Below are positions 56,855-63,498 of a DNA stretch of 64,000 nt, in pieces. The notes under the pieces are model-generated. The model ran no database searches. It was not told the origin of the DNA and saw only the letters and a program-made list of their open reading frames with translations. The stretch comes from Stappia indica (GTDB lineage: Bacteria; Pseudomonadota; Alphaproteobacteria; Rhizobiales; Stappiaceae), in NCBI RefSeq assembly GCF_020177335.1, contig NZ_JAIVMG010000015.1, forward strand, positions 1-64,000. Reading direction: 5' to 3'. Position 1 is the stretch's first letter. Every line of letters starts with the position of its first letter. The position numbers were made by a program, and so were the translations under genes.

Positions 56855-58612
56855 CTAGTTGTGACCGACGGCCAGCGCGCCCTGACGGCGCGGATCGGCG
56901 GCACCGGCCAGACCGCCCTCGACGCTCATCACCGACTGGGTCGAGCCCATGGTCGGCTTCAGCGCGATGGTGTGCCCCTTGGCCCGCAGCAGCGCCAGCG
57001 TATCGGGGGAAACCCCCTCCTCCACCCGCAGCTCATCGGGCAGCCACTGGTGATGCACCCGCGGCGCCGCGCTCGCCTCCGCGACATTCATGCCATGGTC
57101 GACCACGTTGAGGATCACCTGCAGCACGGTGGTGATGATCCGGCTGCCGCCAGGCGATCCGGTGGCCATCAGCAATTCGCCATCCTTGAACACCAGCGTC
57201 GGGCTCATGGAGGACAGCGGACGCTTGCGCGGCGCCACCGCATTGGCGTCGCCGCCGATCAGCCCATAGGCATTGGGAACGCCCGGCTTGGCGGAGAAAT
57301 CGTCCAGCTCATTGTTGAGGAGAACACCCGTATCCCCGGCCATCAGGCCGGCGCCATAGGAAAAGTTCAGCGTATAGGTGTTGGCGACCGCGTTGCCGTC
57401 GTCATCGACGATGGAATAATGGGTCGTCTGATCGCTCTCATAGGGCACCGGGGCACCCGGCTTGATCTCCGCCGCCGGCGCCGCCCGATCCGGCGAGAAA
57501 TCGGCCATCCGCTCGCGGGCATAGGCCTTCGAGGTCAGGCCCTTGACCGGTACATCGACGAAATCCGGATCGCCGAGATACTCGGACCGGTCCGCATAGG
57601 CCCGCTTCATCGCCTCGGCCATCACGTGCAAGGTGGCCGCCGAACCGGCGCCGGAGCCGGCAAGGTCATGATCCTCCAGCATGTTGAGGATCTCCACGAT
57701 ATGCACCCCGCCGGAGGAGGGCGGTGGCATGGAGGCAATGGTGTAGCCGCGATAGGTGCCGGTGACCGGCGCGCGCCAGACCACCTTGTACTCGGCCAGG
57801 TCGGCAAGGGTCATCGGACCGCCCGCCTCCTCAACCCGCGCGACGATCGCCTCGGCCACCGGCCCGCTGTAGAACCCTGACGGCCCCTCGCTGGCGATCT
57901 TGTCCAGGGTCGCCGCCAGATGTGGCAGCTTCAACGTGTCCCCGGCTTCATAGAAGCTTCCGTCCGGCTTGTAATAGGCGGCAAGGCTGGCCGGGTCCTT
58001 CGACAGGCGCGGGTGCACCTGCTTGAGCGATCCCGCCAGATCGTCGGAGACGATAAACCCGTCGCGGGCCAGCGCGATCGCCGGGGCAATCAACTCGGCG
58101 AAGGTGAAGGTGCCGCTGCCGTATTTCTCATGAGCGGCAAACATGCCGGCGACGGTGCCCGGCACACCAACGGCAAAGCCGGAATAGCGCGACTTGTTGC
58201 TGTCCGCATTGCCATCGGCATCGAGGAACATGTCGCGGAACGCCCCCGCCGGCGCCAGCTCGCGATAGTCGAGCGCATGGGTCTGGCCGCTGTCGGCCAG
58301 ATGCACCATCATGAAACCGCCGCCGCCGAGATTTCCTGCCCGGGGCAGGGTCACCGCCAGGGCGAACCCGACCGCGACCGCCGCATCCACCGCATTGCCG
58401 CCCCGGGCGAGAATGTCGCGGCCGACAGCGCTGGCCAGCGCTTCCTGGCTCGACACCATGCCGCCACGCGCCACCACCGGATGGAACCGGTCGTCGCCGG
58501 ACAGGATCGGCCCTGTCTGAACGCTCCCGCTCTGGGCCGCGACCGGCCCGGTTGCCAGTCCGCAGACAAGCCCCGCCATGAGCATGATGCGGGATATTCG
58601 CCGAAACGCCAT
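56855..58612 (-). CDS. ggt: Gamma-glutamyltransferase
   Basis: A 585-residue N-terminal-nucleophile hydrolase acting on periplasmic glutathione. A Sec signal peptide (about 1-26, ending PVAAQ) is present. Autocatalytic cleavage is expected before the Thr in SDQTTHYSIVDDDGNAV (about residue 395), giving two chains. PRAGNLGGGGFMMVHL, PPPSSGGVHIVEILNML and MSPTLVFKDG are family blocks. With ChaC this points to active glutathione turnover. It is divergent from the cytochrome c gene. Confidence 0.94.
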   Translation of the reverse strand: MAFRRISRIMLMAGLVCGLATGPVAAQSGSVQTGPILSGDDRFHPVVARGGMVSSQEALASAVGRDILARGGNAVDAAVAVGFALAVTLPRAGNLGGGGFMMVHLADSGQTHALDYRELAPAGAFRDMFLDADGNADSNKSRYSGFAVGVPGTVAGMFAAHEKYGSGTFTFAELIAPAIALARDGFIVSDDLAGSLKQVHPRLSKDPASLAAYYKPDGSFYEAGDTLKLPHLAATLDKIASEGPSGFYSGPVAEAIVARVEEAGGPMTLADLAEYKVVWRAPVTGTYRGYTIASMPPPSSGGVHIVEILNMLEDHDLAGSGAGSAATLHVMAEAMKRAYADRSEYLGDPDFVDVPVKGLTSKAYARERMADFSPDRAAPAAEIKPGAPVPYESDQTTHYSIVDDDGNAVANTYTLNFSYGAGLMAGDTGVLLNNELDDFSAKPGVPNAYGLIGGDANAVAPRKRPLSSMSPTLVFKDGELLMATGSPGGSRIITTVLQVILNVVDHGMNVAEASAAPRVHHQWLPDELRVEEGVSPDTLALLRAKGHTIALKPTMGSTQSVMSVEGGLAGAADPRRQGALAVGHN

Positions 58613-58726
58613 CGAACAACCTCCTGAATGAAACCCTCTTCCCGACGGAAAGGCCCTGTCGCCACGCGGGTTGAAACGCTACCATTTGCCAAACGGTGGC
58701 AGTCAGAACGCAGGGAGCATAGCACC

Positions 58727-59056
58727 ATGAACGCGATGCGGAAGCCGGTTGCAACGATTGCGGCCATACTCGCTCTGGCAGGCATTGCGGGTACGCCGGG
58801 CACGGCGCTGGCCGATGCCAAAGACGGTGCGCGCCTTGCCCGCCTCTGGTGCGCCGCCTGCCACGTGGTCGCCGATGACCAGGCGTCCGGCAGCGAGGCG
58901 GTGCCGCCCTTCGCCGAGATCGCCAACCGGCCGAATTTCGACCGCGGCGGGCTGGCCGCCACCCTCTCCGGCCAACATCCGATCATGCCCGACATGACCC
59001 TGTCACGGCAGGAGATTGCCGATTTGTCCGCCTATATCGCTTCGCTCGCCCGCTGA
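58727..59056 (+). CDS. Exported class I cytochrome c
   Basis: A 109-residue protein with a signal peptide (about 1-29, ending TALAD). One c-type heme site, LWCAACHVV, gives Cys-X2-Cys-His, and the axial Met is in HPIMPDMTLS. It is a small periplasmic electron carrier. The redox partner is not evident; no oxidase or reductase genes adjoin. GGGAG precedes the ATG. A terminator follows. Confidence 0.9.
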   Translation: MNAMRKPVATIAAILALAGIAGTPGTALADAKDGARLARLWCAACHVVADDQASGSEAVPPFAEIANRPNFDRGGLAATLSGQHPIMPDMTLSRQEIADLSAYIASLAR

Positions 59057-59178: not shown

Positions 59179-60213
59179 TCAGGCGGCAGCCTTCTTCGGC
59201 GCGATCAGCTGGCGATTGACCAGCACCTCGGCGATCTGCACCGTGTTCAGCGCCGCGCCCTTGCGCAGGTTGTCGGCCACGACCCAAAGGTTCAGACCGT
59301 TTTCCACCGTCGCATCCTCGCGGATACGGCTGACATAGGTCGCATCCTCGCCGGCGCATTCATACGGGGTGACGTAGCCGCCATCCTCGGTCTTGTCGAC
59401 GACCAGCACGCCCGGCGCCTCGCGCAGAATATCGCGGGCCTCGTCGGCGGTGATCGGCTTGTCGAACTCGATGTTGACCGCTTCCGCATGGCCGATGAAC
59501 ACCGGCACGCGCACGGCGGTGCAGGTGACCTTGATCGCCGGATCCAGCATCTTCTTGGTCTCGGCCAGCACCTTCCATTCTTCCTTGGTGTAGCCGTCTT
59601 CCATGAAGACATCGATATGCGGAATGACGTTGAAGGCGATCCGCTTGGTGAACTTCTCCGGCACGATCGGATCGTTGACGAACACGGCACGCGTCTGGTT
59701 GAACAGCTCGTCCATCGCTTCCTTACCGCCGCCGGAGACCGACTGATAGGTCGAAACGACGATACGCTTGATCTTCGCCGCATCATGCAGCGGCTTCAGC
59801 GCAACGACGAGCTGTGCGGTCGAGCAGTTCGGATTGGCGATGATGTTCTTCTTGGTGAAGCCGGCAATCGCATCCGCATTCACCTCCGGCACGATCAGCG
59901 GCACATCCGCGTCGTAGCGCCAGGCGGAGGAGTTGTCGATGACGACGCAGCCCTGCGCGGCGATCTTCGGCGACCACTCCTTCGACACCTCGCCGCCCGC
60001 CGACATCAGGCAGATATCGACATCGGAAAAGTCGTAGTGGTCGATCGCCTGACAGGTCAGCGTCTTGTCGCCGAAGGACACGTCGACGCCCTGGGACCGG
60101 CGCGAGGCAACCGCAACCACTTCCGAAGCGGGAAAGCCGCGCTCGGCGAGAATATCGAGCATTTCGCGCCCCACGTTGCCCGTGGCGCCGACAACAGCGA
60201 CCTTGTAAGCCAT
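59179..60213 (-). CDS. asd: Aspartate-semialdehyde dehydrogenase
   Basis: A 344-residue NADPH enzyme that reduces aspartyl phosphate to the semialdehyde, the common precursor of lysine/diaminopimelate, threonine, isoleucine and methionine. The dinucleotide site is VVGATGNVGREML (about 6-18) and the active cysteine is in IANPNCSTAQL; QSVSGGGKEAMDEL follows. The start is preceded by GAGAGGAAGA, which lies partly in a long stem formed with the region after a Thr/Lys-rich leader ORF. The gene stands alone, 349 bases after the phytase-like gene. Confidence 0.96.
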   Translation of the reverse strand: MAYKVAVVGATGNVGREMLDILAERGFPASEVVAVASRRSQGVDVSFGDKTLTCQAIDHYDFSDVDICLMSAGGEVSKEWSPKIAAQGCVVIDNSSAWRYDADVPLIVPEVNADAIAGFTKKNIIANPNCSTAQLVVALKPLHDAAKIKRIVVSTYQSVSGGGKEAMDELFNQTRAVFVNDPIVPEKFTKRIAFNVIPHIDVFMEDGYTKEEWKVLAETKKMLDPAIKVTCTAVRVPVFIGHAEAVNIEFDKPITADEARDILREAPGVLVVDKTEDGGYVTPYECAGEDATYVSRIREDATVENGLNLWVVADNLRKGAALNTVQIAEVLVNRQLIAPKKAAA

Positions 60214-60223
60214 AGAGTTCTTC

Positions 60224-60318
60224 CTCTCGTTCCGCTCCCCGCGAGCCGTGCGGAGCGCCTGTCGCGGTCCATCGGCTCTTCCTGACCCCCGTCGAACCGG
60301 GGGAGCGCGGAACGAGAG
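60224..60318 (-). promoter_or_regulatory. Long-range stem covering the asd ribosome binding site
   Basis: In the asd mRNA, CTCTCGTTCC-GC-GCTCCCC (60318-60300) can pair with GGGGAGCGGAACGAGAG (60240-60224), 17 pairs with a 2-base bulge. The 3' arm includes most of the GAGAGG ribosome binding site. The 5' arm starts seven bases after the leader ORF stop. A competing hairpin CCCCCG/CGGGGG (60303-60286) uses part of the 5' arm, so alternative folds are possible. No T run follows, which argues for control of translation over transcription termination. Confidence 0.6.
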
Positions 60319-60324
60319 AGGCCG

Positions 60325-60459
60325 TCAGACGGTTTTGGTGGTCGTCGTGGTTTTGGTGGTCGTCGTGTCTTCGCCCGCGGAGGCCCCCGCCCATGCGCAA
60401 ACGCCCGCGCGCGGCGCGGTCATGCAGGCACTGGAACCAAGGGTACGGCGATCAATCAT
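60325..60459 (-). CDS. Thr/Lys-rich leader peptide upstream of asd
   Basis: A 44-codon frame (ATG 60459; a second in-frame ATG at 60423 gives 32 codons) ends EDTTTTKTTTTTKTV then TGA. Ten Thr and two Lys codons fall in the last fourteen. Both amino acids are end products of the pathway that Asd feeds, as expected of an attenuator peptide. GGAAAGAG lies just before the first ATG. A predicted promoter stands at 60523-60495. The frame ends 111 bases before asd and just before a stem that covers the asd ribosome binding site. The peptide itself would have no separate function. Confidence 0.6.
   Translation of the reverse strand: MIDRRTLGSSACMTAPRAGVCAWAGASAGEDTTTTKTTTTTKTV
60331..60366 (-). repeat. 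Two tandem copies of an 18-base unit
   Basis: ACGACGACCACCAAAACC is repeated exactly twice (minus strand, 60366-60349 and 60348-60331). Each unit encodes Thr-Thr-Thr-Thr-Lys-Thr in the leader frame. The exact repetition suggests recent slippage or selection for stacked regulatory codons. Confidence 0.9.
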
Positions 60460-60494
60460 CGCTCTTTCCGCGATTGAAGGGACACTAGGCGCCT

Positions 60495-60523
60495 TTCATG
60501 CGGGCAGCGACGATCAAAGTCAA
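60495..60523 (-). promoter_or_regulatory. Predicted asd leader promoter
   Basis: TTGACT (60523-60518) and CATGAA (60500-60495) are 17 bases apart on the minus strand. The -10 box is weak. The transcript would start near 60488 and carry a leader of about 275 bases before asd, with room for the leader ORF and its downstream stem. Confidence 0.4.
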
Positions 60524-60561
60524 CAAATACGATCACAAAAACGGACAGCGAGGACCGCGCC

Positions 60562-61599
60562 TCAATCGCCGTCCAGACGAAACCGCAGCAACAGGGTCCG
60601 CTGCAGGATCGACCGGTTGTCATCCGAGACAAGCGTCACAACGGTATCGCCGGACGGCGAGCGATGCACCGACAGCCCTTCCATGTTGTCGATCTGCTCG
60701 TTGAACCCAGCCTCCAGCAGCACGGTGCCGACGACTTGCGCCCCGGGCACCAGCTCGGCGGCCGGCAACAGTCTGAGCCGCATGCCGATGCCGTGGCGCA
60801 GGGTGAAGCGGCGCTCCAGCAGCAAGAGATCGCCATCGGGCAGGAAGGCCGCGTCGGTGGCGTCGTAATCGTCCTGGCGTTTCAGGGTAAAGGTGCCGGG
60901 CCGGGGACCGCCGATGAGAAACCCGGGCATGTCGTCGGCGAAGGTCGGACCACGCTCGGCGATCACCACCAGCGTGCCCGCCAGGGGGCCGGAATTGGCC
61001 GCGGCGACCGCTTCCATCCCCTTGTTGTGGCGCAGGGACTTGATGGCGGCAGGCAGCGGGATTTCCCGCCCATGTGCCGCGAAATCGAGCGGATAGGGAA
61101 AGGCGAAGATGCCATGCCGGCGCTCGGTCGACACCAGCAGCTCCGCCCCGGCATCACTGCGGCGCAGGGTCAGCGCCTCGCTGTCGCCGCGCCCCAGCTC
61201 CATCAGGGTCTCGCCGCCTGGCCCCAGCAGCGGGGCGACCCGCGCGCCTTCCAGCGCCAGCGGCCGTCCCGTATCGTCCTGCTTCACGCGCGCCGACAGC
61301 CAGAGCCCGTTGTCGGCCACCGCGATCAGATCGCGCCCTTCATCGGTGACAAGCAGACCGGACAGCCCGCCCATGTGCCGGTTCGGCGACAGCAGTTCCA
61401 GCCCACCGAGGAAGGTGAGCCGCCCGAACTGCGTCACCTCCGGTCGGCCGATGCGGAAATGATCGATGGGACGCGCGGTGAGCGGCACCGCCTCGCCCTG
61501 CGGCCCGATGCCGGACGCCGTCGCGACCCCCGCCGTCGCCAGCACCGCAAGGCAGGCGATGACGGCGGCAAGCCGGCGCGCGAAGGGCGTCTTCGCCAC
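60562..61599 (-). CDS. Exported phytase-like/esterase-like beta-propeller protein
   Basis: A 345-residue protein with a signal peptide (about 1-29, ending TASG) and a phytase-like domain: LGGLELLSPNRHMGGLSGLLV, LIAVADNGLWLSARV, NKGMEAVAA and FNEQIDNMEGLSVHR. Members are annotated as esterase-like activity of phytase family; the substrate is unproven. It starts six bases after the cobT stop, so it may be cotranscribed with cobS-cobT. No link to cobalamin synthesis is known to me. Confidence 0.87.
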   Translation of the reverse strand: MAKTPFARRLAAVIACLAVLATAGVATASGIGPQGEAVPLTARPIDHFRIGRPEVTQFGRLTFLGGLELLSPNRHMGGLSGLLVTDEGRDLIAVADNGLWLSARVKQDDTGRPLALEGARVAPLLGPGGETLMELGRGDSEALTLRRSDAGAELLVSTERRHGIFAFPYPLDFAAHGREIPLPAAIKSLRHNKGMEAVAAANSGPLAGTLVVIAERGPTFADDMPGFLIGGPRPGTFTLKRQDDYDATDAAFLPDGDLLLLERRFTLRHGIGMRLRLLPAAELVPGAQVVGTVLLEAGFNEQIDNMEGLSVHRSPSGDTVVTLVSDDNRSILQRTLLLRFRLDGD

Positions 61600-61605
61600 C
61601 GTCCG

Positions 61606-63498
61606 CTAGCCCCGCGACCGCATCCGGCGGCGCCCGGTGGCCCGCGGCATCAGGGTCTGATCGTCGAACAGGTTCGCCAGCTGATCGGTCATCGCTCCGG
61701 CCAGCTCCTCCGCGTCGATGATCGTCACCGCCCGCTGGTAGTAGCGCGTCACGTCATGGCCGATGCCGATGGCGATCAGTTCGACCGGCGACCGGGTCTC
61801 GATCTCCTCGATCACATAGCGCAGATGTCGCTCCAGATAGTTGCCCGGATTGACCGACAAGGTGCAGTCATCCACCGGCGCGCCATCGGAGATCATCATC
61901 AGGATCTTGCGCTGTTCGGGCCGGCCGAGCAGACGCTTGTGCGCCCAGTCGAGCGCCTCGCCGTCGATGTTCTCCTTCAGCAGCCCCTCGCGCATCATCA
62001 GGCCAAGATTGCGCCGTGCCCGGCGCCACGGCGCATCCGCCGACTTGTAGATGATATGCCTCAGGTCGTTGAGCCGGCCGGGCTGGGCCGGCTTGCCGGC
62101 GGCAAGCCATGCCTCACGCGACTGACCGCCCTTCCACGCCCGGGTGGTGAAGCCGAGGATCTCCACCTTGACGCCGCAGCGCTCAAGTGTGCGCGCCAGG
62201 ATATCGGCACAGGTGGCGGCAACGGTGATCGGCCGGCCGCGCATCGAACCGGAGTTGTCGAGCAGCAGGGTGACCACGGTGTCGCGGAAATTGGTGTCGC
62301 TTTCCTGCTTGAAGGCCAGCGGCTGCATCGGGTCGGTCACCACCCGGGTCAGCCGGGCGGTGTCGAGCATCCCCTCTTCCAGATCGAAGCTCCAGGAGCG
62401 GTTCTGCTGGGCCAGAAGCTTGCGCTGCAGCCGGTTGGCGAGCCGCGCCACCGCTCCTTGCAGGTTCACAAGCTGCTTGTCGAGATGTCCGCGCAGCCGG
62501 TCCAGCTCCGCGGTGTCGCACAGCTCCTCGGCCGGGATCATCTCGTCGAACTGGGTGGTGAAGACCTTGTAGTCGGACACCGGCGGCTGATTGGAGAACG
62601 GCAGCTCGCGGCGCTGGCTCTCGCCCGGCTCCTGCGCATCGGCCGCGTCATCGTCCTCGGCCATTTCCTGCAGATCGCCATCGAGCGCTTCGGTCTCGCC
62701 GGCCTCGGTTTCCTCGCCGGACAGCTCCACGTCCTGCGGCGCGCCTTCCTCCTCGCCGGTGTTTTCCTCACCTTCCGAAGCGGTTTCGCCGCGCTCGCCG
62801 TTGCCGTCCTGCTCGTTCTCCTCGCCGTCCGTATCCTCGCCTTCCTGGCCGAAATCCTCGTCCATTTCCAGCGAGGACAACAGGTGACGGATCTGGCGCG
62901 CGAAGCTGCCCTGATTCTCCATCTGCCCGGACAGAAGATCGAGATCCTCGCCGGCCTTCTCCTCGATCCAGTCACGCCACTGGGCGATCATCGGCTCGGC
63001 GCTCTTGGGCGGCGCAAGGCCGGTCAGACGCTCGCGCACCATATGCGCGACCGCCTCCTCAAGCGGCGCATCCTCGCGGCTGGCCACATCCGCATAGGCG
63101 GCCTTGTTGCACCGGTCTTCCAGCATCGCCGCGAGATTGTCCGCCACACCGGGCATCCGGTTGGCGCCGACCGCCTCGCAGCGCGCCTGCTCCACCGCCT
63201 CGAAAATCGACCGCGCCATCTCGCCCTGCGGCGCCAGCTTGCGATGCATGGCCGGATCGTGACAGGCGAGTTTGAGCGCCATGGAGTCGCCAAGCCCGCG
63301 CGTCACCGCGACATCCGTCCCGCTCAGCCGACGCGCCGGCTCCGGCATCCGGGCAGTATGCCCGGACAGGGAGGCCCGGTCAGAGGAGAACAGAACTTCC
63401 AGTTCCGGGTCGCCGGCAATGGCCCGCATGGTGTCGCCGACCGCCCGCTTCAGGGGCTCCACGGTCGGTTTGCTCTTTTCCGAAGGCGGATTGCGCAT
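61606..63498 (-). CDS. cobT: Aerobic cobaltochelatase subunit CobT
   Basis: A 630-residue subunit of the ATP-dependent CobNST complex that inserts cobalt into hydrogenobyrinic acid a,c-diamide. A long acidic, low-complexity middle (about 210-300, Glu/Asp/Gly-rich) separates the N-terminal helical domain from a C-terminal VWA domain with the MIDAS motif [13 protein letters not shown] (about 414-426). The order cobS-cobT is conserved. The symbol here is the Pseudomonas denitrificans cobaltochelatase CobT, not the phosphoribosyltransferase of the same name. Confidence 0.96.

Follow-up and report, generated by a model that had tools for sequence, protein, structure and literature searches.

The window, by which we mean the whole 64,000-nucleotide stretch of Stappia indica DNA that was analysed, belongs to a genome of 4.66 Mb and carries on its reverse strand the gene asd. 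Its product, Asd, acts at the branch point between the lysine/diaminopimelate and the threonine/methionine/isoleucine routes. The gene calls place a gamma-glutamyltranspeptidase (56855-58612) and a small cytochrome c (58628-59056) on one side of asd, and a phytase-like esterase (60562-61599) and CobT (61606-63498) on the other. The gene is present in 61 of 61 genomes, its own included, and the closest of the 80 named asd loci that were kept is that of Stappia stellulata (Hyphomicrobiales, Stappiaceae), at 93% identity. The features from asd to its candidate promoter are as follows.

59179..60213, reverse strand: asd, aspartate-semialdehyde dehydrogenase, 344 aa (Pfam PF01118 and PF02774)
60221..60227, reverse strand: Shine-Dalgarno sequence of asd, AGAGGAA
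60325..60459, reverse strand: leader peptide ORF of 44 codons (from the reading frame list and the conserved Thr/Lys tail)
60331..60366, reverse strand: Thr/Lys run made of two exact 18-base units (ACG ACG ACC ACC AAA ACC)
60495..60523, reverse strand: candidate promoter, with a -35 element TTGACT (60523-60518), a 17-nt spacer and a -10-like element CATGAA (60500-60495)

The first-pass annotation had proposed that a Thr/Lys-rich frame of 44 codons, built on two exact 18-base repeats, precedes asd, and re-reading of the sequence confirms this. The frame at 60459-60325 is translated as MIDRRTLGSSACMTAPRAGVCAWAGASAGEDTTTTKTTTTTKTV-stop and ends in TTTTKTTTTTKTV; the two copies of ACGACGACCACCAAAACC lie at 60366-60349 and 60348-60331, and the last 14 codons include 10 for Thr and 2 for Lys. 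The peptide has no Pfam match. A cmscan of 59900-60700 against Rfam, with E values up to 5, returned a single match, far under the gathering score and within the asd coding sequence; the leader region thus fits no described RNA family or riboswitch. Runs of five Thr codons occur at 10 places in the genome, some of them overlapping, and only that of asd forms a short frame that ends in Thr/Lys before a stop. Moreover, upstream of hom, lysC and three DHDPS-family (dapA-like) genes of the same genome no Thr/Lys/Ile/Met tail matches the 12 of 16 residues found at asd, the highest being 8 of 16, upstream of the DHDPS-family gene L193.

Transcription probably starts near 60488, a position that we infer from the promoter-like element. 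A generic sigma-70 scan of the window did not report this candidate promoter. The TTGAC word is invariant across an 11-locus alignment and is found 60-260 nt ahead of the leader end in 96 of 97 leaders, against 11 of 97 and 19 of 97 for the control words GTCAA and CAGTT under the same test. A start downstream of 60331 would have spoken against attenuation; instead, a conserved promoter-like element lies upstream of the leader, which very probably places the short frame (60459-60325) within the asd transcript, ahead of the gene.

Conservation among relatives had likewise been named as decisive. The upstream DNA of 139 asd loci was collected (37 from the Stappiaceae, 22 from further families in the order and 80 named loci), of which 136 are distinct, since L004/L060, L018/L062 and L031/L067 have identical upstream DNA. 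With a threshold of at least 7 Thr/Lys within the final 14 residues, a Thr/Lys tail is found in 97 of the 139 regions (94 of the 136 distinct ones): 37/37 in the family, 11/22 in the other families and 49/80 among the named loci. On the reverse strand, used as a control, no such tail is seen in 245 upstream regions. The leader is therefore conserved in frame among relatives. A Thr/Lys leader was not recognised in Bradyrhizobium, in Ancylobacter (L085 and L098) or in any but one of the Methylobacterium/Methylorubrum loci. The Bradyrhizobium loci concerned (L122, L124, L125, L127, L128, L130, L131, L134 and L139) have a conserved upstream sequence of their own, ending in a GGAGARTGAACG-like stretch. 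Over the last 8 codons, differences at codon positions 1, 2 and 3 number 260, 546 and 1206 in 375 non-independent pairs. The 12-codon tails of the Rhizobiaceae are an exception, varying most at position 2 (68/174/117). Judged by codon position, the tail shows coding-type change in most groups. In 58 deduplicated leaders the tails comprise 375 Thr, 141 Lys, 23 Ile and 10 Met among 812 residues, and the final Thr/Lys codon stands one codon ahead of the stop in 44 of the 58. Codons for pathway products thus form a run that is conserved in frame. Threonine is a likely, and lysine a plausible second, input of the leader.

A small-proteome study of Sinorhizobium meliloti published in 2023 reported SEP5, a small protein whose frame has six Thr codons and three Lys codons towards its 3' end; it is translated and lies in the 5'-UTR of a gene called 'aspartate dehydrogenase', as stated in the accessible parts of the article (PMC10117765). 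The leaders of the Sinorhizobium loci L073 and L081 end in ..SKTTAKTTTKTV. Because these ends match the codons and the position of SEP5, we take SEP5 to be the asd leader, and its downstream gene, from position and codon count, to be asd. In the same parts of that article SEP5 is called 'possibly a leader peptide' and 'conserved only in Sinorhizobium' (PMC10117765). Its upstream position, its Thr and Lys codons near the 3' end and the suggested leader role agree with what we find; the account differs in restricting conservation to Sinorhizobium, and the available text gives no RNA fold or alternative pairing (PMC10117765). The first-pass annotation knew of no description for alphaproteobacterial asd. 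This holds for the RNA switch, which we did not find in print, but not for the leader itself, since a leader role had been proposed for the Sinorhizobium counterpart (PMC10117765, as far as accessible). Our literature search likewise found no description of the breadth of the leader or of the split between lineages with and without a terminator; by titles and the openings of abstracts, mostly outside the subscription literature, it brought up no further paper on an asd attenuator. A paper on alphaproteobacterial motifs (PMC1273637) does not contain the words asd and aspartate, and the leader-peptide passages of a Caulobacter map name none for asd (PMC4117421).

That SEP5 is made, and that a tagged form is found in the soluble fraction according to the available text (PMC10117765), is what would be expected if the small peptide were itself the product, a functional small protein to which the RNA fold is secondary. 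We consider this very improbable. By eye, the N-terminal part of the peptide is variable while the tail codons persist, there is no Pfam match, and throughout the family the frame keeps its place next to asd. A model of the leader tail plus the A:C pairing described below (R1; 7 base pairs, built on 23 sequences that come mostly from the searched genomes) gives a single strong match in each of the 37 family genomes, every one adjoining asd, and its top match away from asd scores 23.4 bits. In one genome (G008:C1:3814962-3815994) the asd next to the match is in two frames, possibly through a sequencing error.

Between the leader and asd, the following elements can be drawn.

60305..60324, reverse strand: element A, immediately past the leader stop
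60300..60318, reverse strand: 5' arm (A+B) of the putative sequestor stem
60286..60303, reverse strand: local GC hairpin, CCCCCG..CGGGGG
60273..60282, reverse strand: element C in this species (GGAAGAGCCG), predicted to pair with A in the nascent fold
60224..60240, reverse strand: element D, the 3' arm of the sequestor, overlapping the asd Shine-Dalgarno sequence

The proposed 17-bp stem over the Shine-Dalgarno region can be formed as described, 60318-60300 pairing with 60240-60224 over 10 + 7 bp interrupted by a 2-nt bulge; its arm had been placed seven bases after the leader stop, whereas six bases intervene and the arm starts at the seventh. In the predicted fold of the window, the 3' arm pairs 4 of the 7 bases of the Shine-Dalgarno sequence (60227-60221), a fold that would inhibit the asd start. 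How far the sequence is covered differs among relatives, with a mean probability of being unpaired of 0.46. The 146-nt leader has a mildly low minimum free energy (z -1.96, 6 of 200 shuffles being equally good). Compared with dinucleotide shuffles, A+B:D of the window falls at 1.3%, and A:D lacking B at 5.6%. Since the register of A+B:D differs between species, this pairing was tested without an alignment, by swapping partners among 59 leaders that remained after deduplication of 100 (4 weak ones of 104 having been excluded); the shuffle tests used the same set. Swapped partners matched the own ones in 3 of 5000 permutations overall and in 1 of 5000 when swaps were kept within groups, one of which is a mixed 'other' group. 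Absence of covariation in the stem had been set as grounds for rejecting it, and the swap test, in which own partners do better, does not bear this out. The corresponding figures for A(1-26):D are 4/5000 and 7/5000; own partners are not clearly superior for A(1-18):D (739/5000), and the controls gave 166/5000 (leader ORF with D) and 1060/5000. Against shuffles, A+B:D is within the best 5% for 8 of 59 leaders, a modest excess (p 0.009); A(1-20):D without B (4/59) and B:C (5/59) are not above shuffles, and three controls gave 0, 1 and 3 of 59. Together, these tests lend moderate support to A+B:D as a sequestor pairing.

A competing GC hairpin had also been proposed. It exists, at 60303-60286, but overlaps the 5' arm by 4 bases only; a competing fold is present, yet the better supported competitor of the sequestor is A:C. 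This pairing is possible in three clades with differing sequences, with C 20-30 bases past A: GGUGCC..CUCGUCCC with GGGAY..GGYGCC in the Stappiaceae, GUCUCUGGCC with GGCCGGGGAC in the Rhizobiaceae, and UCCCU-GGCC with GGCC-GGGG in the Phyllobacteriaceae/Brucella-like group. In the Stappiaceae (34 rows) 82.7% of the cells are paired, as against 44-55% in slid versions, 36 cells have double changes against 13.7 after shuffling (0/500), and the covariation is 0.230 against 0.139 (0/500). Double changes affect 8 pairs (22 of 500 shuffles have as many), and pair types are no more numerous than in shuffles (436/500). The Rhizobiaceae (20 rows) have 98% of cells paired and zero two-sided changes; the Phyllobacteriaceae/Brucella-like group (16 rows) has 97.2% paired, covariation at 4/500 and double changes in a single pair, a number reached by 163 of 500 shuffles. 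Covariation of the aligned A:C pairs is thus clear in the Stappiaceae and weaker elsewhere. Partner swaps for A(1-26):C gave 0/5000 overall and 15/5000 within groups, those for A(1-18):C 0 and 0, and A:C is in the best 5% of shuffles for 21 of 59 leaders (p 4e-13). The window's own A:C of the family type is weak, ranking at 35% of shuffles, and some of the apical A:C pairs typical of the family have been lost in this species. In the nascent fold predicted for the first 58 nt, A of the window pairs instead with GGAAGAGCCG at 60282-60273, which also lies within the middle hairpin's 5' arm.

The missing terminator T run noted earlier is borne out, in that no intrinsic terminator-like site was found in the window between the leader and asd on their strand. 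In the order, 95 of 97 leaders are without such a site and the other 2 have a weak one. The layout of a classical transcription attenuator, with an intrinsic terminator between leader and gene, is therefore not that of the window. The same leader and the same sensing could also act by Rho-dependent termination, a Rho loading site within A/B being masked either by A:C or by the ribosome. Such an output would agree with the lack of intrinsic terminators in this order, sister orders having them, and with the C- and pyrimidine-rich character, by eye, of A/B in three clades. We nevertheless regard it as unlikely, because the complementarity of A+B to the Shine-Dalgarno region, which exceeds that of swapped partners, is not needed for control by Rho, and B:D, which recurs clade by clade, would be superfluous. 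A translational output, at the initiation of asd, is likely.

Outside the order, 106 loci were taken (104 distinct; one, L150, actually belongs to the order of the window). Two other orders were sampled since the leader had already been seen there; it stands at 10 of 30 loci in one of them and at 11 of 16 in the second, and at 4 of 60 in the remaining sample. With L173/L203 and L179/L238, which are the same places, each counted once, there are 23 distinct Thr/Lys leaders before asd, and 20 of them have an intrinsic terminator-like site. These leaders (L155, L173/L203, L179/L238, L186 and some among L199-L241) are all upstream of asd. In 17 of the 20, bases past the leader stop complement the 5' arm of the terminator over 5-9 bp, although pairing of A with the terminator arm surpasses composition shuffles at 5% in only 5 of the 20. 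A pairing of this kind would be antiterminator-like and would give the same polarity as the one favoured below. The order of leader, A and a competitor of A looks common across orders, with a different output device. Possibly, then, the Thr+Lys attenuator of asd has kept its leader and A:C logic across orders and differs in its output, a terminator in some and a Shine-Dalgarno sequestor in the Hyphomicrobiales; we advance this tentatively, as a proposal that falls somewhat short of probable. If true, it offers a natural series in which an attenuator passes from transcription to translation control, and the contrast with the terminator-type leaders of other orders is a testable case of a changed attenuator output.

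For the order of the window, we think it reasonably probable that the Thr/Lys leader peptide serves an attenuator of asd that reads charged threonine tRNA, and probably also lysine tRNA, with a likely output at initiation. In this scheme, the ribosome would translate the leader, in which the Thr/Lys run stops about one codon short of the stop codon. When A+B is paired with D, part of the Shine-Dalgarno sequence would be hidden; A:C, the putative antisequestor, would hold A and B off D and make the asd start cheaper to open. If Thr (or Lys) is scarce, the ribosome would stall in the run with its footprint ending about where A begins, A:C could form while the RNA is being made, and asd would be ON. 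With a good supply, the ribosome at the stop would cover A, A:C would fail, and A+B:D would later close the start (OFF). The usual ribosome footprint was applied to place the stalled and stop-codon ribosomes relative to A: because the last Thr/Lys codon is one codon before the stop, a stalled ribosome would end near the start of A and one at the stop would cover it. The reach of the footprint, the polarity, the kinetic trapping of A:C, the translational output and the lysine input are the parts of the scheme that we infer.

On average over the 59 leaders, the asd start takes 8.8 kcal/mol to open in the free RNA and 6.5 kcal/mol when A/B is barred from pairing beyond position 60; for the window the values are 15.4 and 7.6 kcal/mol. 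With bases 1-10 masked (ribosome at the stop) the mean is 7.4 kcal/mol, and with 1-4 masked (stalled ribosome) 8.9 kcal/mol, so that, at equilibrium, stalling does not make the start more accessible than it is in free RNA. In this model the stop state opens more easily than the stalled one in 33 of 59 leaders and less easily in 11, and in the window the costs are 8.6 at the stop, 13.8 stalled and 15.4 kcal/mol free. Masking of 13 nt is equivocal, access to the Shine-Dalgarno sequence rising in 27 and falling in 17 of 59. Keeping A local makes opening easier than masking 1-10 in 31 of 59 and harder in 17; the advantage is clear in Rhizobiaceae-like (10/11) and Phyllobacteriaceae-like (4/5) loci and not clear in Stappiaceae-like (10 vs 6 of 20) or the remaining loci (7 vs 10 of 23). 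Simple equilibrium folding thus does not support the favoured polarity (shortage ON, plenty OFF) and, within the model, speaks against it. The same figures, 33 against 11 leaders and 8.6 against 13.8 kcal/mol in the window, agree with translational coupling of the opposite polarity, in which a leader ribosome at the stop opens the sequestor and aids asd, and slow leader translation lowers it. Coupling of this kind would make little sense for a biosynthetic gene and leaves the conserved A:C and the antiterminator-like layout of other orders unexplained; we judge it improbable. Given the equilibrium result, the favoured polarity could hold only if the sequence of folding events settled A:C, the way it does in transcription attenuators, and the antiterminator-like layout of other orders is its best external support. 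The original reading of the locus as an attenuator therefore stands as to the Thr/Lys leader, the missing terminator, a competing fold and a fold able to hide the start, but the equilibrium model opens the start more with the ribosome at the stop than stalled.

In the transcription attenuators of amino acid operons, such as thr and trp of E. coli, a leader rich in codons for the products of the pathway and competing folds are combined, and stalling decides between the folds. Such a leader is also found at asd, with putative competing folds between which stalling would decide; the E. coli attenuators end in an intrinsic terminator, which the window and 95 of the 97 leaders of its order are without. 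In the translational attenuators of erm and cat, stalling of the ribosome on the leader frees a start that had been sequestered. The freeing of a sequestered start site by a stalled ribosome would be shared by asd, although the inducers of erm and cat are antibiotics and not a shortage of amino acids. In the Actinobacteria, according to the accessible text, the LEU element places a leader with regulatory codons at the Shine-Dalgarno sequence, and Shine-Dalgarno-sequestering T-boxes a sequestor/antisequestor pair, in both cases with no terminator (PMC1262725). These elements control leucine or isoleucine genes, and in LEU it is the run of codons that base-pairs with the Shine-Dalgarno sequence; for the threonine and lysine operons of Actinobacteria that text reports no conserved upstream structure (PMC1262725). 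The asd leader is, in sum, a genuine attenuator candidate that is conserved and has been little described. If it does sense two of the products of the pathway, such a conserved leader would explain how many alphaproteobacteria, rhizobia and Stappiaceae among them, set the Asd branch point.

Some leaders depart from the common form. In Bartonella (L129 and L135) the tail is GHKKTTKKII, with more Lys than Thr, and is followed by A and C sequences resembling those of related families. The leader of L104 has Ile next to Thr/Lys (TKTTITI). Those of L078, L103, L105, L106 and L123 are very short, with an ATG that lies, by eye, about 7-9 bases past a -10-like element; L078, L103 and L106 fall under the Thr/Lys threshold and are thus outside the leader counts. 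All five are possibly leaderless frames, like those reported for trpL of S. meliloti.
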